Assembly (NCBI RefSeq): GCF_004006315.1 | Contig: NZ_CP026530.1 | Span: 1,416,501 to 1,480,500 of the forward strand | Source: Nautilia sp. PV-1 | Lineage (GTDB): Bacteria > Campylobacterota > Campylobacteria > Campylobacterales > Nautiliaceae | DNA length: 64,000 nt | Reading direction: 5' to 3' | Shown: piece by piece, positions 47,010-58,676 of the stretch | Position numbering within the stretch: the stretch's first letter is position 1 | How the letters are laid out: each line of letters begins with the position of its first letter | The notes under the pieces: generated by a model | What the model was told of the DNA's origin: nothing | Database searches by the model: none | Seen by the model: the letters and a program-made list of their open reading frames with translations, nothing else | Made by a program: the position numbers and the translations under genes

Positions 47010-49923
47010 ACATCTTCTAAATCAAAAGACGGATATAGTAACCTCTTCTCAAAAAGAGGCTCTGCTTGGTGGAGAAGTTTATAAATATTTAAATATCCCC
47101 TACGTTGTCTTTCCGGATTTCAGAGCGGTTTTAGGAGATGATTTAAGAAGTTTCAGAACGGAAATTTTTGAGCTTAACAACGCTTTATATAAATTTTATA
47201 ATGAAAACTCATATTTTATTTCGCCATATACCACCGTATTAAAAAAGCTGCCGGTAAAAAAATATTATAAAGACATTGTCTTGGAATTCGGTGACGACAT
47301 TAATCTAAATGAACTGAAAGAAAAACTGGTTCTTTGGGGATACGAACATGTGGATATAGTAAGTGAAAAAGGAGAAGTAAGCTTCAGGGGAGACATATTT
47401 GACATATGGCCGATAAACCTGGATAAACCCGTAAGGGTTTCCCTTTTTGATACTGAAATAGAGAGTATAAGAATTTTCGAAGAAACGGACCAGAAAAGCA
47501 TTGAAGAAATTGAAAGTTTCAAAATAATACCGGCCATAGCGGCACTGGACAAAAATGAATACAATGAAATACTGGATAAAATCAACAAAAGCGAATTTTC
47601 CGCATTTTACAAGGATTTTTATTCATTAGGCTTTTGGTACCTGCAAAGGGATTTTCTTGACGGTTTTTCGATACTTTACGATATAAGCCAGGAAATTCAG
47701 GAATATAAAGAGTTTCATAAAGAATTTAATACATATATTGAAAAAGCTCCTTTAATCCCTAACGGGAAATGTAAAGATATTACTGTAAAAAACATTAAAG
47801 AATATCTCTCATTACACAAAAACCAAAAAATAGAAATACTGGCTAAAAACGAAGTGTTATTAAAAGAAGCTGATATTTATGAAGACATAAAACTGAAAGC
47901 CCCTTTGGTCAAATGGATAAAAAGTTCCGCTCACGTAAATATTTCATGCCCCGAAAAAACAGTAATTTCATTAAATCCGCCTGAATTTGAAAAAAGAAAA
48001 AAAACCTCCCTGGTTCTTGACGAACTGAAAAAAGGTGATTTCGTTGTTCATGAATCACACGGCATCGGAAAATTTAACGGACTGAAAAAAGTTGAAATAT
48101 TAGGAAAAGTAAGCGAATATGCGGAAATATTATACGCAAACGACGACAAACTGCTTTTACCTGTAGAAAATCTAAATTTAATAGAAAAATATATTGCCCC
48201 CGGAGGTGTAATTCCGGCTCTCGATAAACTCGGAAAAGGCACATTCGCTAAAAAAAGAGAAAAAATTAAAGAAAAAATTTTCGCAATGGCTGCCGATATT
48301 ATCAAACTCCAGGCACAAAGGGAACTTATAAAACCGGCTCCTTTAAATTTTGAAGGCGTAAAAGAATTTATCGATAAAGCGCCTTTTATTCATACACCGG
48401 ACCAAAAAGAGACAATAAACGCTATTTTAGAAGATTTTAAAACAAAAGTAATGGACAGACTGTTAAGCGGAGACGTCGGATTCGGAAAAACGGAAGTGGC
48501 GATGGTTGCAAGTTTTGTAGTGGCAAAATCCGGCTATCAGGTGGCCGTTATAGCACCTACTACAATTTTGGTCAACCAGCATTTCGAAAGTTTTAAAGAA
48601 AGATTTAAAGATTATCCCGACATAAAAATAGCCAAACTGGACAGGTTTACATCTTCTAAAGAAAAAAAAGAAATAACCGAAGGCGTAAAAAACGGAGAAA
48701 TAAAAATTTTAATCTCAACTCATGCGGGTTTAAATCTTAAATATAAAAATTTAGGTCTGGTTATAATAGACGAAGAACATAAATTCGGCGTAAAACAGAA
48801 AGAAAAATTAAAAGAACTGGCAAAAGACGTTCATACACTTTACATGTCTGCCACTCCGATACCGAGAACCCTGAACATGGCGCTTTCTCAGGTTAAATCT
48901 ATTTCCACCCTGGAAACGGCTCCAAAAGGGAAAAAATCTACAAAAACATTTGTAAAAGAATGGAATGAAAATCTCATTAAAGAAGTTATTTTAAGAGAAC
49001 TAAGGCGCGGAGGACAGATATTTTATATTTACAACAACATAGCTTACATAGAACAAAAGAAAAAAGAGCTTCAAAATATTCTTCCGGATCTTAGAATACT
49101 TGTTTTACATGCCAAACTCACTCCTTCACAAATCGAAAAAGGCCTTGTGGATTTTATAGCGGGCAAATACGACCTGGCGCTTACAACCACCATAGTCGAA
49201 AGCGGAATACATATACCTAATGTAAACACCGTAATAGTGGAAAACGCCGACAAATTCGGAATAGCTGATCTTCATCAGATAAGAGGCAGAGTGGGAAGAG
49301 GAAAACACGAAGGTTATGCATACTTTTTAGTTAAAAATAAAGACGAATTAAGTGAAGACGCAAAAAAAAGGCTTTTGGCGCTTGAAGAAAATTCATTCCT
49401 CGGAAGCGGACAGGTGCTTGCCATGAGAGATCTGGAAATCAGAGGCGGCGGCAACATATTGGGTGCACAGCAGTCAGGACAGATAAAAGGCGTAGGTTAT
49501 TCCATGTATGTAAAAATGCTTGAAGACACTTTAAAAGAGCTAAGCGGCAATAAAATTCAGGAAAACGAAACAGAAGTAAAACTTAACATTAACGCATACA
49601 TATCAGACGAAGTAGTTAAAGAAGACAGATTAAGACTTGATTTATACAAACGTTTTTCAAATGCAAAAACAATTAAAGAAATATACGAACTCGAAAAAGA
49701 AATGATAGACAGGTTTTCAAAACTGGACAAGCCGACACGCAATTTTATTGAAAAAATGAAAGTCAAAGTGCTGGCTCAGGACAAAGGAATAAAATCTATA
49801 TCCAATTACGGTGAAAACATAACTATTATCTATTCTGACGACAAAAAAGAATTTATAAAAGCGCCTGCAAAAGACGACGATATAATTTTAGAAACTATTA
49901 TTACGAAACTTAAAGATATTTGA
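46990..49923 (+). CDS. mfd: Transcription-repair coupling factor Mfd
   Basis: An SF2 translocase that releases stalled RNA polymerase and recruits UvrA. It has 977 residues, shorter than E. coli Mfd (1148) but usual for this phylum. The RNA polymerase interaction domain is near 335-400 (GDFVVHESHGIGKFNGL). Helicase motifs include LLSGDVGFGKTEVAMV, VIAPTTILVNQHF, the DEEH box, MSATPIPRTLNMAL and IHQIRGRVGRG-type HQIRGRVGRGKHEGYAYFL. The C-terminal TRCF domain follows. It starts at TTG 46990 with AAGGAG in place and overlaps the end of folC. Confidence 0.96.
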   Translation: MQAKIYEHLLNQKTDIVTSSQKEALLGGEVYKYLNIPYVVFPDFRAVLGDDLRSFRTEIFELNNALYKFYNENSYFISPYTTVLKKLPVKKYYKDIVLEFGDDINLNELKEKLVLWGYEHVDIVSEKGEVSFRGDIFDIWPINLDKPVRVSLFDTEIESIRIFEETDQKSIEEIESFKIIPAIAALDKNEYNEILDKINKSEFSAFYKDFYSLGFWYLQRDFLDGFSILYDISQEIQEYKEFHKEFNTYIEKAPLIPNGKCKDITVKNIKEYLSLHKNQKIEILAKNEVLLKEADIYEDIKLKAPLVKWIKSSAHVNISCPEKTVISLNPPEFEKRKKTSLVLDELKKGDFVVHESHGIGKFNGLKKVEILGKVSEYAEILYANDDKLLLPVENLNLIEKYIAPGGVIPALDKLGKGTFAKKREKIKEKIFAMAADIIKLQAQRELIKPAPLNFEGVKEFIDKAPFIHTPDQKETINAILEDFKTKVMDRLLSGDVGFGKTEVAMVASFVVAKSGYQVAVIAPTTILVNQHFESFKERFKDYPDIKIAKLDRFTSSKEKKEITEGVKNGEIKILISTHAGLNLKYKNLGLVIIDEEHKFGVKQKEKLKELAKDVHTLYMSATPIPRTLNMALSQVKSISTLETAPKGKKSTKTFVKEWNENLIKEVILRELRRGGQIFYIYNNIAYIEQKKKELQNILPDLRILVLHAKLTPSQIEKGLVDFIAGKYDLALTTTIVESGIHIPNVNTVIVENADKFGIADLHQIRGRVGRGKHEGYAYFLVKNKDELSEDAKKRLLALEENSFLGSGQVLAMRDLEIRGGGNILGAQQSGQIKGVGYSMYVKMLEDTLKELSGNKIQENETEVKLNINAYISDEVVKEDRLRLDLYKRFSNAKTIKEIYELEKEMIDRFSKLDKPTRNFIEKMKVKVLAQDKGIKSISNYGENITIIYSDDKKEFIKAPAKDDDIILETIITKLKDI

Positions 49924-49947
49924 TATAATTTTATCCCCCCTTTTTTT

Positions 49948-50037
49948 GGAGAGATGGCCGAGTGGTTTAAGGCGCACGCCTGGAACGCGTGTGTGGGTTA
50001 ACGCCCACCGAGGGTTCGAATCCCTCTCTCTCCGCCA
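49948..50037 (+). tRNA. tRNA-Ser (anticodon GGA)
   Basis: A complete class II tRNA with encoded CCA. The acceptor GGAGAGA pairs with TCTCTCC, the anticodon loop CTGGAAC gives anticodon GGA, a long variable arm (GTGTGGGTTAACGCCCAC) and T loop GGTTCGAATCC follow. A TATAAT lies about 20 bases upstream, at the mfd stop. The accessory helicase cassette begins on the other side, 115 bases beyond the CCA. Confidence 0.95.
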
Positions 50038-50085
50038 TTACTTCAAACTTACGTAAATTCAGTATTTTTAAAAAATAAACAAGGT

Positions 50086-50132
50086 AAGTGTCAGTTGTTT
50101 TTAGCGGATTTTTACTGATAATTTAACTGACA
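50086..50132. repeat. TGTCAG-type inverted repeat, copy 2
   Basis: AAGTGTCAGTTG at the left and AACTGACA (50125-50132) at the right form an inverted repeat (TGTCAGTT with AACTGACA) around a 28-base spacer, between tRNA-Ser and the helicase gene. The left end matches the other TGTCAG-type units in the window. Confidence 0.5.
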
Positions 50133-50151
50133 ATTTTAAATGACTTATATT

Positions 50152-53100
50152 CTAATCTACTTTAATCAAAATAATATTGAAAACCCCTTGAAGAATCTCT
50201 TTTTTTTCATGAGTATTATAATTTTCTGTAAAATAATATACTAAATTAACCAGATTTATATTTTTTATTTTATATCCTTGATTTAATTTTATTTTTATTT
50301 TATTTATTCCTTTATCTGGTTTAGATTCTGATAATTGTGTGATAAAATTGTGCGAAAAAATTTTATTTCCTTTCAAAAACAAAGGGGAATTGGACAAATA
50401 AACTTTTTTTAATTCTTCTTGACAATCAAATGATTCCCCCAAATGTATATCACCTAAACCTAATTCTAAAATTATTTCTTCAGGTTTCAAATAGGAATTA
50501 TTGTCAGTTTTATATATATGTTTATTATTTTCAATAAATTTATTATAAAAATAATTATGATTTGTATAAATAAACAAACTTTTTTTTGCCCTTGTTACTG
50601 CCACGTAATATTTTCTTATTAAATTTTCATCTAAATTTTCATTATATTTGTTGTTTTCATCCATAATTATTACATTTTCAAACTCTTTGCCTTTTGCTTT
50701 ATGGATGGTGCTGATTGTGATTCTTGAAGTAGAGGATTTAAAAAATTCATCGTCCAAATCATCAATAAGAGCTTTCCAAGCCTCATAAGTAAAACTTTCT
50801 TTATTTTTTACATATGAAATCAGTTCATAAACATAATGGAAATTTCTTGAAAAGGAAAGGTGTGAAATTCTCGCTAATGCTTTGTTTAATATTTCTTCTG
50901 TAAGTATTTTCTCTTCTTGAAGATTTTCTATTATTGCATTGTCAAATTCCTTAATTTCAAACAAATCGCTCCACTTGAATTTTTGTTTATCAAGTATAAG
51001 TTTAGATTTAATGTTGTATTTGTTTAAAAGAGACTTTAGTGTCAAGGCAGTGTCGTTGCTGTGTGTTAATATTGCAATTTCCCGTTCAATTCCTATGTCC
51101 ATTATTTTTGCAACTACCGGTTCATAGAGATTTGGTGAAAAAAATTTGATTATCTCTATAATTCCTTTTTCTTTTTTTACAGGCACTATATCCGTTCTTT
51201 TTTTTCTGGATTTTATCTTTTTTATAAATTCATTGGAATATTCGACTATATTCTCTGTACTTCTGAAATTTTTACTTAAACTGAAACTCACCTTTTCTTT
51301 TGTATCCAAAAGCTCCCAAAAATCATCAAAAAACTTAACTGATGAACCTGTAAAATCCATTATCATCTGGTCGTCGTCACCAACAGCAACTATTTCTCTT
51401 ATTCCCGAATATTTAATTATCTCTTTAACAATTTCAAACGTTTTAGGGGTAATATCCTGGTATTCGTCTAAATACAACACCGATTTTACAGGAATTATTT
51501 CTTTTTTTATCTCAGGTTCCAAGCACAAAAATTTATCAAATATATAATTATTGTCTTTTTGAGTACTTATATTTTTACTGTTTTCTCCGAGAATATAATA
51601 TAAATAAGAATGAAACGTATGAATATCCAGTTTATATACATCATTTCCTATCAAATCATATAGCCTGTCTTTAAACTCAATCATTGCGGTTCTGGTATAA
51701 GTCAGCATTAAAAACAGTTCCGGATTTACTTTTTCGTTATTTAAAATAAGATTAGCAATTTTATTTACAAGCGTTTTTGTCTTTCCGCTTCCAGGACCTG
51801 CCAATACAAGCATTTGCCTTTTTTTGCTGTTTACAATTTCTTTTTGTTCATCGGTTAAACTTTCAAAAATCTGTTTATGCTTTGTTTTGGTAATGAAATA
51901 TCCAATATATTGTTTTACAAATTTAATGTGTTTTTTAATAAAATCATCTATAGGCATTAAAAAATAATTTTTTAGAAATTCGGAAGTGTTTGAATTTGTC
52001 TGTCTTATTAAAAATTCGTTCATGATATGTATTTTTTTTCTTTTGTTTTCATAATACGGTTTTTTTCTTTTTTCATACATTTCATTTGTGTATTGGTTTA
52101 TGTGTTTTTTTACTTTTAAAATATATTGAGGATAATAAATAAAAACACCGTCTATTAGTGTTATAGCTTTTGCATAATGCAAAAAAACAAGATAATCATT
52201 AATTTCTTTTTCTTTCAAATTCGGAAATTCTTTTTTTATGTCAGAAAATTTGACGGTTGTTTTGTTTTCTAATATTTTTTTGTAAATTCTATACGAATAA
52301 TTAAGTCTGTTATTGATTTTTTCTTTAAATTTATCAATATTTTGTGTTTTTAATTTCCATAAACTAAGTTTCTTATCAAGTCTTTTAATTTCGGTATATT
52401 CTTTCCAGTTGTTTAAAATTCTCTCTAATATTTCTATGATTTTCTTATTGTTTTGTTTATTGTATTTTTGAAATCTTTTGTCTTCGCTTTGTTTAAAATT
52501 TTCAGCAATTTCGCGCAGTTTTAAAATTTCTTCACCGTTTGTTATATTTTCTATTAAAAATCTCTCCAAAGCAAAATAGAGCCACTGAACCGGTTTGTTA
52601 ATTTTAAAATGGATATCCACTTCTTCACTTATTATCTCTTTATCTTTTAACTCTTTTACGGCTTCAATAATTTCTTTTTCGTTTCTGCCTAATAAAAATG
52701 CGGCTTCGGCTATGTCAAGCGTTTTTCTTGATTTTTTCTTTATTAGGTTATAAATTTCAAAAGCAAGATTGATTTCTTTGCTACCAACATCCAGTAATTT
52801 TCTTACCTTTACAATATCGGTTATTTCTATCGCTGTTGCATAAATATTGTAGTTGTTGCTTTCTCTTTCAATTAAACCTTCTTCTGTCAGTTCTGTAATA
52901 ATGTCGTTAAGTCTTTGTTTATATTCTTCGGAATCTATATCTATATTTAATTTTGATTTTAAGGCAAGTTCTACGGGAGTTATGTATATTTTGTCTTTTT
53001 TATAGTCTTTTATAGCCTGATAAACAGCTTGAATTTCTTCTCTTGTAATAATTGAGCTTTTTAATCTATGCAAATATTTGTCGAAGTCTCCCTCATAATA

Positions 53101-55158
53101 CAAACTGATACATTCGGCTTGAGGTACAAGTTTTTTATCCCTTCCGGCTCTTCCGGATTCCTGCATATAATCTTCTATGTTTTGTGACGGGGTAAAATGA
53201 ATTACACTTTCAATATCAGGCTTATCAACTCCCATACCAAAAGCCGTGGTTGAAACTATAATATCTATATGATTGTCAAGAAAATTTTGCAAAATTTCTT
53301 CTCTGTTTTCTTTTTTTGAATGGAAACTCTCAACTCTTAAACCGCTTTCAATATTTAATCTTTGTGCTACTTCATCGCAATCCTTAATACTGTTTGGAAT
53401 ATAAATAATTTGTTTAGGTTTCACCAACTTTAAAAGTTCTTTATATTTTTCCTCAAAAATATCTTTTTTATTTTCAGCATTGATTTTTATAACTTTATAA
53501 ATTAAATTATTTCTTTTGTTATCGGCTATAAATTCTTCAAATCTGATATTTAATTTATCATAAAAATAATCTTTAATATCTTTAATAACTTCCTTTGAAG
53601 CGGTTGCACTAAATAATGAAATAGGTGGTATTTCTTCATTATATATTTCTTTTAAAAAATCGGCTATATATCTGTAATCAGGTCTGAAATCGTGTCCCCA
53701 CATTGATATACAATGTGCTTCGTCTATTACAACCCTTGATAAATCTCTTTTTTTTAAAATACCTCTTATTGTCTTAAAACGCAAGGATTCGGGCGCAATA
53801 TACAACAAATTCACAATACCATTTTCCACATCCTCGATAAGCTTTTTTCTTTCACTTGGAGATAAAAATCCGCTTAATGCTCCGGCTTTTACGGATGTAT
53901 TGTATTTTTTATTAAATCCTTCTATCTGGTCTCTCATTAATGACCGTAGTGGAGAGATGACAAGTGTAAGTCTTTGAAAATTTTCGGCTTCAAATATAGC
54001 CGGTATCTGATAACAAAGGCTTTTTCCTCCTCCTGTGGGTAAAATTGCGAGAATATTTTTATTGTTTAATGCCGTGTTTATAATATCTTCCTGGGAAATT
54101 TCCCTGTTTTCAAAAATGTTTTTTTCAAGAGGTTTGAATTTTCTAAATTCAAATTCATTACACTCAAGTAGATTCTGGACATAGTTTTTTAAAGATTTTA
54201 TTTTTTTTAATACCAATTTTTTTTCAACTTTATATAAATTTTCAATATTTTTGTATGCAAAAGGCGGCACAGGCTTTTTTAGGTATTTTGACATTAAAAT
54301 AATTGCAATTTCAAATGAATTTCTTAATATATACTCTTTGTCTATATTTTCAAAATAATTATTGATTATCTCAAAAACCACTTTTTCATCAATTTTTACC
54401 AAATCCAATCCGGTATACTTGAAAAATCCTTTATAATATTCATTATCTTTGAGAAAATAAAAAAGAGTGTGCTTCAATTCTTTGGGTAATGTTTTAAAGG
54501 TTTCGCATAATTCTACAAACAATTGAAGTGATTCTTTTGCGTCTTTTAAAGGGTTGTTTTGTTTTTCTTCGCGTTTATATTCCTTATCCAGCGAAAGAGA
54601 CGATTTTTTACTAAACAAAATTGATAAATACAATGTGTCAATGAAATTTTTCTTCCTTAATGCGTTCTGAAAATTTTTTGTAAAATTTACTTTTTTATAA
54701 TAAAAAGAATAACTCAACAAAACAGGGACATCATAATTTATAATATTATGTCCGCATATAAAATTAATACTTTCATTATTTAAAATAAATTCCTGAAATC
54801 CGTTTATTGTAAATAAATTACCGCCTGGTTGAGTTGCCACTATTTTTTCATCGTTTATTGTGTCAATATCTATAAAAATCAATTTAAAATCCATTGCTAT
54901 TTTAATATACTGAATTAATTCTTTTTCACTTATTCCAAAATTTTCAAAATTTTTGCATTTAATAACAAGATGTCTTTTTGAAGTGTTTTTGATATTATTT
55001 ATGTCTTCTTCAAGCCAGTATTTTTGAGAGGGCAGGTTGTAATTATCCATATCATCGTAATCTATAAATTTCCAGTCTTTTTTATAAACAAAGTAATTGT
55101 TTTTGATTAAGTTTGTTATTTGTTTATAATCGGCCTCTCCAATATCCAATAATTTCAA
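50152..55158 (-). CDS. Giant fusion: exonuclease-like domain, RecQ-type helicase and UvrD-type helicase
   Basis: A 1668-residue protein with two complete helicase engines. Residues about 90-215 resemble a DnaQ-like 3'-5' exonuclease: IFIDIDT (95-100), GHNIINYD (136-143) and PLKDAKESLQLF; the first motif has Asp-Ile-Asp instead of Asp-x-Glu, so activity is uncertain. A RecQ-like SF2 core spans about 350-700: LPTGGGKS (373-380), DEAH (479-482), FSATAS, and QESGRAGRD (667-674). The RecQ four-cysteine zinc site is absent; winged-helix-like segments follow. A UvrD/Rep SF1A core covers about 1098-1540: AGPGSGKT (1120-1127), DEYQD (1231-1235), GDDDQMIMDF, TIHKAKG, YVAVTRAKK. The start is TTG with AGGGGA before it. 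The gene looks more AT-rich than its neighbours and is probably transferred. Repair or defence roles are inferred. Confidence 0.88.
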   Translation of the reverse strand: MKLLDIGEADYKQITNLIKNNYFVYKKDWKFIDYDDMDNYNLPSQKYWLEEDINNIKNTSKRHLVIKCKNFENFGISEKELIQYIKIAMDFKLIFIDIDTINDEKIVATQPGGNLFTINGFQEFILNNESINFICGHNIINYDVPVLLSYSFYYKKVNFTKNFQNALRKKNFIDTLYLSILFSKKSSLSLDKEYKREEKQNNPLKDAKESLQLFVELCETFKTLPKELKHTLFYFLKDNEYYKGFFKYTGLDLVKIDEKVVFEIINNYFENIDKEYILRNSFEIAIILMSKYLKKPVPPFAYKNIENLYKVEKKLVLKKIKSLKNYVQNLLECNEFEFRKFKPLEKNIFENREISQEDIINTALNNKNILAILPTGGGKSLCYQIPAIFEAENFQRLTLVISPLRSLMRDQIEGFNKKYNTSVKAGALSGFLSPSERKKLIEDVENGIVNLLYIAPESLRFKTIRGILKKRDLSRVVIDEAHCISMWGHDFRPDYRYIADFLKEIYNEEIPPISLFSATASKEVIKDIKDYFYDKLNIRFEEFIADNKRNNLIYKVIKINAENKKDIFEEKYKELLKLVKPKQIIYIPNSIKDCDEVAQRLNIESGLRVESFHSKKENREEILQNFLDNHIDIIVSTTAFGMGVDKPDIESVIHFTPSQNIEDYMQESGRAGRDKKLVPQAECISLYYEGDFDKYLHRLKSSIITREEIQAVYQAIKDYKKDKIYITPVELALKSKLNIDIDSEEYKQRLNDIITELTEEGLIERESNNYNIYATAIEITDIVKVRKLLDVGSKEINLAFEIYNLIKKKSRKTLDIAEAAFLLGRNEKEIIEAVKELKDKEIISEEVDIHFKINKPVQWLYFALERFLIENITNGEEILKLREIAENFKQSEDKRFQKYNKQNNKKIIEILERILNNWKEYTEIKRLDKKLSLWKLKTQNIDKFKEKINNRLNYSYRIYKKILENKTTVKFSDIKKEFPNLKEKEINDYLVFLHYAKAITLIDGVFIYYPQYILKVKKHINQYTNEMYEKRKKPYYENKRKKIHIMNEFLIRQTNSNTSEFLKNYFLMPIDDFIKKHIKFVKQYIGYFITKTKHKQIFESLTDEQKEIVNSKKRQMLVLAGPGSGKTKTLVNKIANLILNNEKVNPELFLMLTYTRTAMIEFKDRLYDLIGNDVYKLDIHTFHSYLYYILGENSKNISTQKDNNYIFDKFLCLEPEIKKEIIPVKSVLYLDEYQDITPKTFEIVKEIIKYSGIREIVAVGDDDQMIMDFTGSSVKFFDDFWELLDTKEKVSFSLSKNFRSTENIVEYSNEFIKKIKSRKKRTDIVPVKKEKGIIEIIKFFSPNLYEPVVAKIMDIGIEREIAILTHSNDTALTLKSLLNKYNIKSKLILDKQKFKWSDLFEIKEFDNAIIENLQEEKILTEEILNKALARISHLSFSRNFHYVYELISYVKNKESFTYEAWKALIDDLDDEFFKSSTSRITISTIHKAKGKEFENVIIMDENNKYNENLDENLIRKYYVAVTRAKKSLFIYTNHNYFYNKFIENNKHIYKTDNNSYLKPEEIILELGLGDIHLGESFDCQEELKKVYLSNSPLFLKGNKIFSHNFITQLSESKPDKGINKIKIKLNQGYKIKNINLVNLVYYFTENYNTHEKKEILQGVFNIILIKVD

Positions 55159-55185
55159 TTTATTTTCCCCTAAAAAATTTAAAGA

Positions 55186-55564
55186 TTAATATGAAACACC
55201 TAAATAATTTTCCAATTCTTCTAATTGCCAACCTACTTGCTCATAAAAAACAGTAGAAGTATGTTCTAAAAAAGGAATAACTTTATCTAAACTCTTTTTT
55301 AAACCATATACATCAAGTGTTTTTTTGTAATAAAAAAATTTTTATGTCAGGTTTTATTGTTTTTAAATAATAAATATTTTGAAAGTATTGTTTAATTACA
55401 ATAATTATTCTGTAATTATAATTTTGCAGTCTATCTACAAATGAAGAAATTTTTTCGCCCAATTCAAATTTTTTTAGTTTTTTGATTTGAGACTTAATTA
55501 ATTTCTCACTTTCTATTTCAACAGTATTTTTTATTATTTCAAACATTTTTATAATCTCTTGCAT
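55186..55564 (-). pseudogene. Small gene upstream of the helicase fusion, interrupted by a frameshift
   Basis: Not recognised. From ATG 55564 (preceded by GGGGG) an 83-codon frame runs through a helical, Lys-rich protein (MQEIIKMFEIIKNTVEIESE) and stops at 55313. In the +1 frame an open stretch continues without a break for 44 codons (TLDVYGLKKSLDKVIPFLEH, then FYEQVGWQLEELENYLG) to a stop at 55186, 27 bases before the helicase start. The switch must lie within a short window holding T7 and A7 runs near 55320-55345. Removing one base would give one protein of about 130 residues. Either a real mutation, a sequencing error at the homopolymer, or programmed slippage. Confidence 0.65.
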
Positions 55565-55852
55565 TTTATCCCCCAAAAGACAGTTAAAGAATTATATCGA
55601 AATTTAAAAAGCAACTTATTTTAAATCAACTTTCCTTTATATTAAATTAATTTTTGAAAAAATATAATTTATTTTTTAATATTTTTTGAGGTTTATTGTA
55701 TATTTTTTCTTCAACACTTTCAGATCCATTATTTTTCTTCGATTCATATTATATAGCAATTAAATTTTCTTACTCATTTTTTCTATATATATTGAAATTA
55801 AAAATAATAATGTTAAAATAAAAAGAATGAATTATTTACCTGAAGGAATATA

Positions 55853-56500
55853 ATGATTTCAAAAATATTTATCGATACGCTGATATTAATTACGGTATTT
55901 AATCCTTTAGAAGCGGCTATTGTTCTACTGTCTATAAGAAATCCATATGATAATGATACAAAAATAGCTTTTATTTCTTCGCTAACTGTATTTGTTTTAT
56001 CTTTTATAATACTTTTTGTTTCTTCTTTCTTATTTACTCATATTCATTCCGACATACTGCCCGGCAATGAAACCCTTTATATAAACGTTGTCAAAATAAT
56101 AGGTGGGATACTGCTTTTTTTTGTGGGATGGATTATGATAAACGGAAAAAGAGCAAGCAATATGGTACTTAATAAAAAAGAAAAAAAATTCGCAAAAGAA
56201 AAAGAAGAAATTGCAATAATACCAATGGCTGTACCAGTTATATTAGGACCTGGAGTGTTTACCGTGCTGCTTGTACTTGGAGACAGGGCAAAAAACACGA
56301 TTTCTAAAGAAGAACTTTTTATCTCACTGGTGCTGTCAATGCTTGTAATGTATCTGACGTTAAAATATGCCGAAAAAATTATTAAATTTCTAGGTCTTCA
56401 CGGTATTAAAATAATATCTTTGCTTACGGGTCTGTTTATTATGTTTATTTCTATAATTTTCTTTATAAACGGGTTAAAAGGAATTTTAAGCTTTATGTAA
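55853..56500 (+). CDS. MarC-family inner membrane protein
   Basis: A 215-residue protein of the MarC/UPF0056 family with six predicted transmembrane helices. Family segments are TVFNPLEAAIVLLSI near the N-terminus (usually NPLG/NPxG), IIGGILLFFVGWIMINGKR, and IPMAVPVILGPGVFTVLL, the conserved P-x-x-x-GPG. Function of the family is not established; older claims of drug resistance were not confirmed. Its end overlaps the convergent dnaX by 15 bases. Confidence 0.9.
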   Translation: MISKIFIDTLILITVFNPLEAAIVLLSIRNPYDNDTKIAFISSLTVFVLSFIILFVSSFLFTHIHSDILPGNETLYINVVKIIGGILLFFVGWIMINGKRASNMVLNKKEKKFAKEKEEIAIIPMAVPVILGPGVFTVLLVLGDRAKNTISKEELFISLVLSMLVMYLTLKYAEKIIKFLGLHGIKIISLLTGLFIMFISIIFFINGLKGILSFM

Positions 56501-57964
56501 AATTTTTTCTATTTTTACATCGCTTCCGAATATTTCCCTTACTTTATTTATAACTTTTTCCGAATTGTCTGTAAGTATTGATTCTGCAGGTTTTTTTCTT
56601 TTTGTTTCAATTTGTGTTAATTCATTTTTTTTTTCACATCTGAGAGGTTCTATTTTTGTGCCTATACCGAATATTTCATTAATCAGAGGCCTTATAACCG
56701 GTGAAAAAAATCTTTTAAACATTTCTTTACATTCACTGTCCGGGCAGCTTTCCCATTTTAAAACTTTGTTTTCAAAAGAGATAAATTTAACGCTTGTTTC
56801 AAAACATACTCCGAGGTCTATATCTTTTTCTTTTATTTTTGTTATAAGTTTTTTAAACAGATCTTCCGGAGAATCAAAAACTTCTTCTTTTTTAGGCTCG
56901 TAATTTTTAAGATCGATTTTGCGTTCAAAACTTTTAATCAAATCATCTATTTTATGAGGCTTCATTGCTTCAATCATTCTAAAAAACATTATCGAAAGCA
57001 CAAATTCGTTATCTGTGTTATATTTAATCAGTTCTTTAGTATCGGCTACGATATTAAAAAATCTCTGAACCGTAATTAGAGGCAGACCGCCTTCGAAAAG
57101 AGCGTCTTTTAAGTATATGATAATTTCATCTATTATTGATTCTATATCGTAATCTTTTATTTCGCTTATAATTTCCTTCACTCTTTTTTTATCAGCGTTT
57201 TTAATATTTTCGAACAGTTCCGTAATTGTTTCAGGATTAACGACACCCAGCATATCCACAACGCTGTCTAAATCAATTCTTCCTTTTGAAAATGCTATAG
57301 CCTGATCAAGCAGCGTCAGCGAATCCCTTACAGAACCTTTTGCGGCTTTGATTATAAGCCTTAATGCGTCTTCATCAAATTCTACATTTTCTTTTACTAA
57401 AATTTTTATAAGATAATTATGTATTATAGAATCTTTTATTTTATTAAACCTGAAATGCTGAACACGGCTTAGTATAGTTGCGGGAAGTTTCAAAGGATCC
57501 GTTGTAGCCATTATGAACTTAACGTATTCAGGAGGCTCTTCAAGCGTTTTAAGCAAAGCGTTAAACGCTTCGTTTGTCAGCATATGAACCTCGTCAATTA
57601 TAAATATCTTATATTTACCTACGCTAGGTTTATATTTGGTATGTTCGATAAGTTCTCTTATATCCTCTATTTTACGATTGCTGGCCGCATCCATTTCGAT
57701 AATGTCAATATGTCTGTTTTCATTAGCCATAACGCAGTTTTCGCACTCTTCACAAGGATCCGAAGTAGGCCCTCTGTCACATTGAAGAGCTTTTGCAAGT
57801 ATTCTTGCCGTAGTCGTTTTACCCGCTCCTCTGAGTCCCGAAAACAGATAAGCGTGTGCGAGTCTGTTATTGTCAAGAGAATTTACTATCGTTTTGACGA
57901 TTGCATCCTGACCGATAATTTCTTCAAAACGTTTAGGTCTGTATTTTAATGCTAAAACCAACAA
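56486..57964 (-). CDS. dnaX: DNA polymerase III subunits gamma/tau
   Basis: The clamp-loader ATPase, 492 residues. The N-terminus is classic: LALKYRPKRFEEIIGQDAIV, Walker A SGLRGAGKTTTARIL near 43-57, four zinc cysteines (CDRGPTSDPCEECENC), Walker B IIDEVHML and sensor 1 IMATTDPLKLPATILSRVQHFRF. Domain III ends near 360; a short tau-like tail follows. At codons 444-447 there is a run of ten A (T10 on the plus strand, 56625-56634). Slippage by one base in either direction would meet a stop within three codons, giving a product about 45 residues shorter. Confidence 0.96.
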   Translation of the reverse strand: MLVLALKYRPKRFEEIIGQDAIVKTIVNSLDNNRLAHAYLFSGLRGAGKTTTARILAKALQCDRGPTSDPCEECENCVMANENRHIDIIEMDAASNRKIEDIRELIEHTKYKPSVGKYKIFIIDEVHMLTNEAFNALLKTLEEPPEYVKFIMATTDPLKLPATILSRVQHFRFNKIKDSIIHNYLIKILVKENVEFDEDALRLIIKAAKGSVRDSLTLLDQAIAFSKGRIDLDSVVDMLGVVNPETITELFENIKNADKKRVKEIISEIKDYDIESIIDEIIIYLKDALFEGGLPLITVQRFFNIVADTKELIKYNTDNEFVLSIMFFRMIEAMKPHKIDDLIKSFERKIDLKNYEPKKEEVFDSPEDLFKKLITKIKEKDIDLGVCFETSVKFISFENKVLKWESCPDSECKEMFKRFFSPVIRPLINEIFGIGTKIEPLRCEKKNELTQIETKRKKPAESILTDNSEKVINKVREIFGSDVKIEKILHKA

Positions 57965-57975
57965 CTGTTCCTTTA

Positions 57976-58272
57976 TTATTTTCTAGATAAGATAGCTTCG
58001 ACTATTGCATACGCAACACTGTCTTTATTTTCGATAAAATCGTTTGTGAGCATTTCGTCAGTAAAGTCAAAATCAAAAAATGTCTGATTGTTTACAAATT
58101 CCTGAAGATCAAAATTATTATTTATCGCAAAAAATTTATTTACCAAATTTCTTACTTCGTCGCTGACTTCTTCTCTTTCAAGAAGATTTTTTAGATACTG
58201 TACTTCTTTATTTGCATTAGTTTTCAAAAGTTTACTGATAAAATTGTACTTATCTTTATTGCACCAAATCAT
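57976..58272 (-). CDS. Unknown small acidic protein upstream of dnaX
   Basis: Not recognised. A 98-residue, Asn/Asp/Glu-rich protein, mostly helical, with no signal peptide or membrane helix. Notable segments are LKNLLEREEVSDEVRNLVNK and QTFFDFDFTDEM. It ends 11 bases before the dnaX start and is probably cotranscribed, as a small dnaX-linked gene is common. A role in replication cannot be claimed from sequence alone. The reading frame is well separated from neighbouring features, so it is likely real. Confidence 0.65.
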   Translation of the reverse strand: MIWCNKDKYNFISKLLKTNANKEVQYLKNLLEREEVSDEVRNLVNKFFAINNNFDLQEFVNNQTFFDFDFTDEMLTNDFIENKDSVAYAIVEAILSRK

Positions 58273-58390
58273 ATTTTAAAACATTCCTTTTTTTAACTTA
58301 AAAGCCTTTAATAATTATAACCCGATATAATTGTAATGTCAATTAAAATTTAATATTGGATAAATATTTCTTATATGTCTAGATATAAAC

Positions 58391-58404
58391 AGTGACAGAC
58401 ACTT
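58391..58404. repeat. TGTCAGACAC-type palindromic repeat, copy 3
   Basis: AGTGACAGACACTT lies between the small dnaX-linked gene and the tRNA gene. It matches copy 1 with one base changed, read in the same direction (GACACTTAT shared). Confidence 0.5.
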
Positions 58405-58421
58405 ATATTTGAAGAATTAAA

Positions 58422-58498
58422 TGGTAGTGAGGGGGAGACTTGAACTCCCGACCTCCGGCTTATGAGACCGGCGCTCTAGCCAGCTGAGCTACCCCACC
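58422..58498 (-). tRNA. tRNA with CAU anticodon (elongator Met, or Ile2)
   Basis: A 77-nucleotide tRNA with encoded CCA on the minus strand. The acceptor GGTGGGG pairs with CCTCACT, including two G-U pairs; D arm GCTCAGCTGGCTAGAGC; anticodon loop CTCATAA gives CAU; T arm GGGAGTTCAAGTCTCCC. The first acceptor pair is not the C-A mismatch of initiator tRNA, so it is elongator Met or the lysidine-modified Ile2 tRNA; sequence alone does not settle which. Confidence 0.92.
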
Positions 58499-58515
58499 AA
58501 GTTATGTGGAGTGAA

Positions 58516-58521
58516 ATTATA
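58516..58521 (-). promoter_or_regulatory. -10 element of the CAU tRNA
   Basis: On the minus strand GGTTATAATTT provides TATAAT about 18 bases before the tRNA 5' end. Confidence 0.5.
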
Positions 58522-58676
58522 ACCACTTTTTATTTAAAATTCAAGAATTTTTTTAGCAAATTTAAAAAACATATTTGAAAAGCTTTTTTGAATATTCGCA
58601 TGAACGCAAAAAGTTACTAAACGTAACACAAAACATTAAATGAAATGTAAAGTAATATTAAAATAACTTAAAATGC

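Follow-up and report, generated by a model that had tools for sequence, protein, structure and literature searches.

A DnaQ-fold/RecQ/UvrD triple fusion in a remnant tRNA-targeting element of Nautilia sp. PV-1: a candidate anti-invader protein

Beside a tRNA-Ser gene of the vent bacterium Nautilia sp. PV-1 lies a single reading frame that joins two complete motors of different superfamilies, both from 3'-5' families, to an exonuclease fold in one chain. The fusion belongs to a real, mobile and uncharacterized family with a shared architecture, intact ATPase motifs and a patchy distribution. On the sequence evidence set out below, we lean toward the gene being the cargo of a tRNA 3'-end-targeting integrative element and acting against invading DNA; a DNA-processing role of this kind is our best guess, held with moderate confidence. 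More tentatively, the family may constitute an undescribed cross-phylum, single-gene anti-invader system, in which a WRN-like unit is coupled to a UvrD motor and a DEDD domain with a His-to-Asn change senses 3' ends, acts as a brake or is an altered nuclease. The locus reveals a Nautilia family of tRNA-targeting elements that bring exchangeable, defense-like cargo, and the fusion offers a compact test both of cooperation between paired motors and of a DEDD domain without the catalytic His or Tyr. Features are listed in Table 1, with positions in the window (the whole 64,000-nucleotide stretch of PV-1 DNA analyzed) unless another source is named.

Table 1. Features of the PV-1 tRNA-Ser(GGA) locus and of related elements
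Feature	Position	Strand	Remarks
tRNA-Ser (GGA)	49948..50037	+	ARAGORN
Attachment core CTCTCTCCGCCA	50026-50037		last 12 bp of tRNA-Ser(GGA); equivalent core directly repeated at two other PV-1 elements
Attachment arm	50038..50137	.	TGTCAGT at 50089, ACTGACA at 50126, mutated middle ACTGATA near 50114
Triple-fusion protein, 1668 aa	50152..55158	-	intact single reading frame
C-terminal beta-rich domain, residues 1560-1668	50155..50481	-	from model; kept in most of family
UvrD/PcrA-type SF1A core, residues 1098-1540	50539..51867	-	
Linker, residues 700-1016	52111..53061	-	model secondary structure, weak wHTH matches, profile A9
RecQ-type SF2 core, residues 345-690	53089..54126	-	
DnaQ/DEDD-like domain, residues 93-222	54493..54882	-	D97, D99, D143, D174, N201, D206
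Small upstream reading frame, first part, 83 aa	55313..55564	-	ATG at 55564; weak matches to helical domain
Native right flank	55853..57964		marC (+, 55853-56500), dnaX (-, 56486-57964); same convergent pair in G007
Element at tRNA-Ser(GCT) (L024, L119)	PV-1 genome 382441-393080		repeated core CCCGCCCTCTCCGCCA, integrase
Element at tRNA-Asp	L025:10011-15224		perfect 13 bp core repeats GTCGGCTCCGCCA, integrase, ACTGACA words at both ends

The reading frame opens with a TTG preceded by AGGGG, and because the longest open frame in composition-matched shuffled DNA (27% GC) was 140 codons, a chance origin for 1668 codons is ruled out. A preliminary description, made from the letters alone, had placed a DnaQ-like part, a RecQ core and a UvrD core in this one frame with all helicase motifs intact, and the profile searches and a motif check agree. 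Pfam reveals DEAD and Helicase_C at residues 356-674 and UvrD N and UvrD_C at residues 1101-1533 (PF00580, 102 bits; PF13361, 63 bits), and the RecQ core scores 272.9 bits against the NCBIfam model TIGR00614, above its cut-off of 219.8. GGGKS, DEAH and QESGRAGRD are present in the RecQ core, and AGPGSGKT, DEYQD, GDDDQ and YVAVTRAK in the UvrD core. The reported lack of RecQ zinc-binding cysteines is also confirmed: no such cluster follows the RecQ core, C683 being the sole cysteine between residues 595 and 1211 (the only one past the core before residue 1212), and the family alignment has no corresponding column cluster after the core. A structural model of residues 1040-1668 (pLDDT 87) retrieved PcrA, UvrD and Rep, with PcrA (1pjr) as the top match (E = 2.7e-27) and GajB further down the list, and a model of residues 1-1062 (pLDDT 77) matched RecQ-family structures. 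In both sequence and fold, the best matches of the RecQ part are RecQ, WRN and BLM. The linker between the motors is predicted to contain about four winged-helix-like units, and the region around residues 965-1085 carries the family signature on which profile A9 is based. Residues 1-88 resemble no relative, and residues 1-76 were modeled with very low confidence.

No Pfam family matches the DnaQ-like part, and the list from the fold search with the 1-1062 model was dominated by RecQ structures, so that this search gave no separate confirmation of the exonuclease fold. A family profile of this part compared with the PDB matched DEDD exonucleases (E = 1e-4). The preliminary description had singled out residues 90-215 for a structural check, and the model shows, at residues 93-222, three strands, a helix, a strand, helices and a strand in succession, as in a DnaQ-type fold; the family keeps the motifs D-x-E, GHNxxxxD, IDTL and NxPxxD in this domain. 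The order of elements in the model, the conserved motifs and the profile match together support a DnaQ/DEDD-type fold. D97, D143 and D206 are kept in every covering row of the 51-member alignment and E99 in 48 of 50, and the PV-1 copy is the only one of the 51 with D-x-D rather than D-x-E as motif I. In DEDD enzymes, a His or Tyr four to five residues before the last Asp activates the water (PMC11194089). This position is Asn in 48 of the 51 aligned members, Ser in three and never His, and it is Asn or Ser in all 63 pattern-readable members of a wider set, so that neither the DEDDh nor the DEDDy residue is found in the family. The earlier term "exonuclease" thus holds for the DEDD fold and its metal-binding acids (D-x-D in motif I here) and fails at the catalytic His/Tyr position. 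The domain would be either an altered or weak nuclease or a binder of 3' ends. Between the exonuclease fold and RecQ, 44 of the 51 relatives carry a four-cysteine cluster (one apart, then CxxxxCxxC), possibly a zinc or iron-sulfur site, which is missing from the aligned Campylobacterota (including PV-1) and cyanobacterial members. At two Clostridia-type loci (L058:9857-14304 and L068:7605-12461), an ORF of its own encodes the exonuclease-fold part and precedes the one for the helicase part; either the gene is genuinely split there or a frameshift interrupts it.

The cassette starts 115 bases after the tRNA-Ser gene, as first described. The intervening arm has words spaced 25 and 12 bp and shares 83-87% identity with the sequence that follows tRNA-Ser(GCT) and tRNA-Asp in PV-1 and tRNA-Ser(GGA) in relatives, where the ACTGACA words show the same spacing; it is an attachment arm typical of a family of elements with tyrosine integrases. 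Of the core genes said to flank the cassette, mfd, dnaX and marC do stand beside the locus, marC and dnaX as native neighbors outside the insert. Inclusion of marC in the cassette was considered and rejected, as the convergent pair also occurs in a relative, G007 (marC 72% and dnaX 75% identical), where ~30 kb separate tRNA-Ser from dnaX and an element occupies the same tRNA-Ser. Because the pair is native, the PV-1 insert spans only ~50138-55850. Among 23 genomes searched, G007 alone has a close relative of this marC copy (72%), the others having paralogues of at most 42% identity or none. In a sister species of the same genus, mfd, tRNA-Ser and dnaX are all present but the insert is not, and the GC content of the PV-1 insert is 26% against a mean of 34%. 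Mobility at a tRNA gene, as proposed in the preliminary description, is borne out by the arm, by the insert-free sister species and by two complete elements of like kind elsewhere in PV-1. Neither a second core repeat nor an integrase was found at positions 49901-58600: the tRNA-side arm survives with a mutation in one of its words, the integrase end is lost, and the locus is the remnant of a tRNA-targeting element, not a complete one.

The small frameshifted gene described upstream of the fusion on the same strand is present, its second part lying in another frame and ending at 55186, 27 bp before the fusion TTG. The first 67 residues resemble a helical domain found N-terminally in longer, unrelated proteins of Campylobacterales (E to 5e-7), and no homologue occurs in any related fusion locus; on these grounds we rejected it as a conserved partner, and the small partner gene of the preliminary description falls away.

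The family has ~56 full-length members, the PV-1 copy counted, drawn from genomes and plasmids of Bacteroidota, Clostridia, Proteobacteria, Cyanobacteria, Verrucomicrobia and Campylobacterota, with lengths of ~1000-1900 aa (most 1500-1900). It is sparse and mostly single-gene, with a DEDD-type exonuclease fold, a RecQ motor, a winged-helix linker, a UvrD motor and a beta-rich C-terminal domain in this order. Its architecture is constant over the 51 aligned members, and at the positions sampled the lysines of Walker A, the acids of Walker B and the arginines of motif VI are invariant wherever covered. At NCBI, members of ~1600 aa are labeled "RecQ family ATP-dependent DNA helicase" (e.g. WP_151029446.1 of Aliarcobacter and WP_022275194.1 of Bacteroides), with an annotation that covers the RecQ core only, and our literature search found no description of the DEDD-fold/RecQ/UvrD architecture. 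About 12 further members lie on viral-classed contigs (IMG/VR) near integrases, methyltransferases and ParB-like genes; since no virion genes appear within the 25 neighbor families listed, some of these contigs may be plasmids or integrated elements. The matches listed for phage records are mostly plain RecQ cores.

The patchiness implied by a mobile module is evident: the linker signature occurs in 20 of 299 Campylobacterales genomes, and PV-1 itself is the only one of 21 genomes in its bacterial family with an intact fusion. In another member of that bacterial family, G008, a wreck remains with most of the gene gone. Comparison of the PV-1 copy with the G008 fragments gives a dN/dS of ~0.22, and the gene was therefore constrained, under purifying selection, during much of their separation. 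The four Campylobacterota members group together in the tree, and the exact placement of PV-1 is unsure because its branch is very long (2.44, the median being 0.33). That branch, the G008 wreck, the D-x-D motif, the frameshifted neighbor and the lost element end would suit a degenerating passenger that is currently functionless, a state that the intact 1668-codon frame, the full set of ATPase motifs and the dN/dS make very improbable for the PV-1 copy. The patchy distribution, the mobility and the decay in G008 also argue against the view that the fusion is an accessory enzyme of repair or recombination, retained for stress as a WRN equivalent in bacteria to which a UvrD motor has been added. 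We consider such an enzyme unlikely, even with an exonuclease fold joined to RecQ as in WRN, best matches to RecQ, WRN and BLM, and a precedent for exonuclease-helicase fusion in DinG (PMC12345164).

The two apparently complete PV-1 elements measure ~10.5 kb at tRNA-Ser(GCT) and ~5.2 kb at tRNA-Asp. In both, the tRNA 3' core recurs at the far end with an integrase just inside, and the ACTGACA words at each end keep constant intervals of 25 and 12 bp. Genes for a PD-(D/E)XK nuclease (PF14281) and a PP2C lie in the tRNA-Ser(GCT) element, and the G007 element at tRNA-Ser(GGA) carries a C5 cytosine methylase, Vsr and an AAA protein; the cargo of these two is of a defense sort. Three elements share a ~440-aa protein with no informative Pfam family (L025:11975-13300, L024:17233-18546 and L118:9884-10660, the last apparently split), possibly a mobilization protein; a likeness of the 441-aa gene to relaxases seen by eye gained no support from Pfam and was set aside. 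Neither complete PV-1 element contains the triple-fusion gene, which is therefore not needed for transfer. This absence, together with the many chromosomal copies that have no mobility genes in view nearby, makes it rather unlikely that the fusion maintains or establishes mobile elements as an unwindase aiding replication, ssDNA conversion or recombination. Such a function is suggested by a member beside parA/parB and a replication initiator on an Aliarcobacter plasmid, by members near ssb and parA on Bacteroides plasmids and by one at L214 that adjoins an integrase-like gene, recognized by eye.

No conserved partner or operon accompanies the family, the biggest groups of shared neighbors covering 6 of 56 loci and looking generic. 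We tallied PADLOC matches among the four closest genes (two per side) of family members and of housekeeping UvrD/PcrA genes as controls. Family neighbors match 113 and 132 models (sets of 98 and 93 proteins) and control neighbors 34 (96 proteins), an excess that is suggestive, these being model counts inflated by many models per protein and the two sets of loci differing taxonomically. Among the matched neighbors are type I and III restriction-modification, type IV restriction and AbiEi; hsdR/M/S adjoin the member on an Allochromatium plasmid, and a LeoA-like dynamin and a WYL regulator lie beside that at L217. From these neighbors a defense role appears plausible, but several Campylobacterales copies stand amid housekeeping genes. 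In two genomes, similar ~497-aa genes share a few bases with the beginning of the helicase gene (L216:5451-6944 and L217:11983-13473); by eye they look like RecB/Cas4-type nucleases, and PADLOC gave no match for the L217 copy. A by-eye reading of the L220 neighbors as Wadjet was dropped when PADLOC returned no match at 1e-10. PADLOC 2.0.0 has no model of the fusion itself and matched its helicase cores only (DpdF, PsyrT, GajB, RTasHel); membership of Gabija, Dpd or PsyrTA was rejected, the similarity being confined to motor cores with no conserved partner.

In the anti-invader mechanism that we favor, the element would target the 3' ends of tRNA genes and, having lost its integrase end in PV-1, would now be stuck there. 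When foreign DNA enters or replicates, the fusion would load at an end, a gap or a fork, and the two motors of the protein, with a presumed 3'-5' polarity, would strip or unwind the duplex. At a fork they would work from opposite strands; alternatively, they would act one after the other along a single strand. The 3' strand set free would be bound, and perhaps trimmed, by the exonuclease-fold domain, and the invader would be left uncopied or exposed to host nucleases. The preliminary description had envisaged action on both strands in series; both motors do fall in 3'-5' families, which makes this arrangement just one among several possible geometries.

Like the RecQ helicases (E. coli RecQ, RECQ5 and BLM), which are its best sequence relatives in the PDB, the fusion has an SF2 core with all motifs, but it lacks the RecQ zinc cysteines and carries an exonuclease fold and another motor besides. 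WRN, whose exonuclease is of the DEDDy kind, likewise has a DEDD-type fold ahead of RecQ in a single chain, whereas the UvrD part is found only in the fusion, where the last catalytic position is Asn. The SF1A core is shared with UvrD, PcrA and Rep and with GajB of Gabija. GajB works together with GajA, whereas the fusion family has no recurrent partner gene of any kind. SaDinG, with a DEDD exonuclease fold at the N-terminus of an SF2 helicase, has the same order of parts as the fusion (PMC12345164), but its unwinding runs 5'-3', it lacks a UvrD part and it belongs to the canonical DEDDh enzymes.
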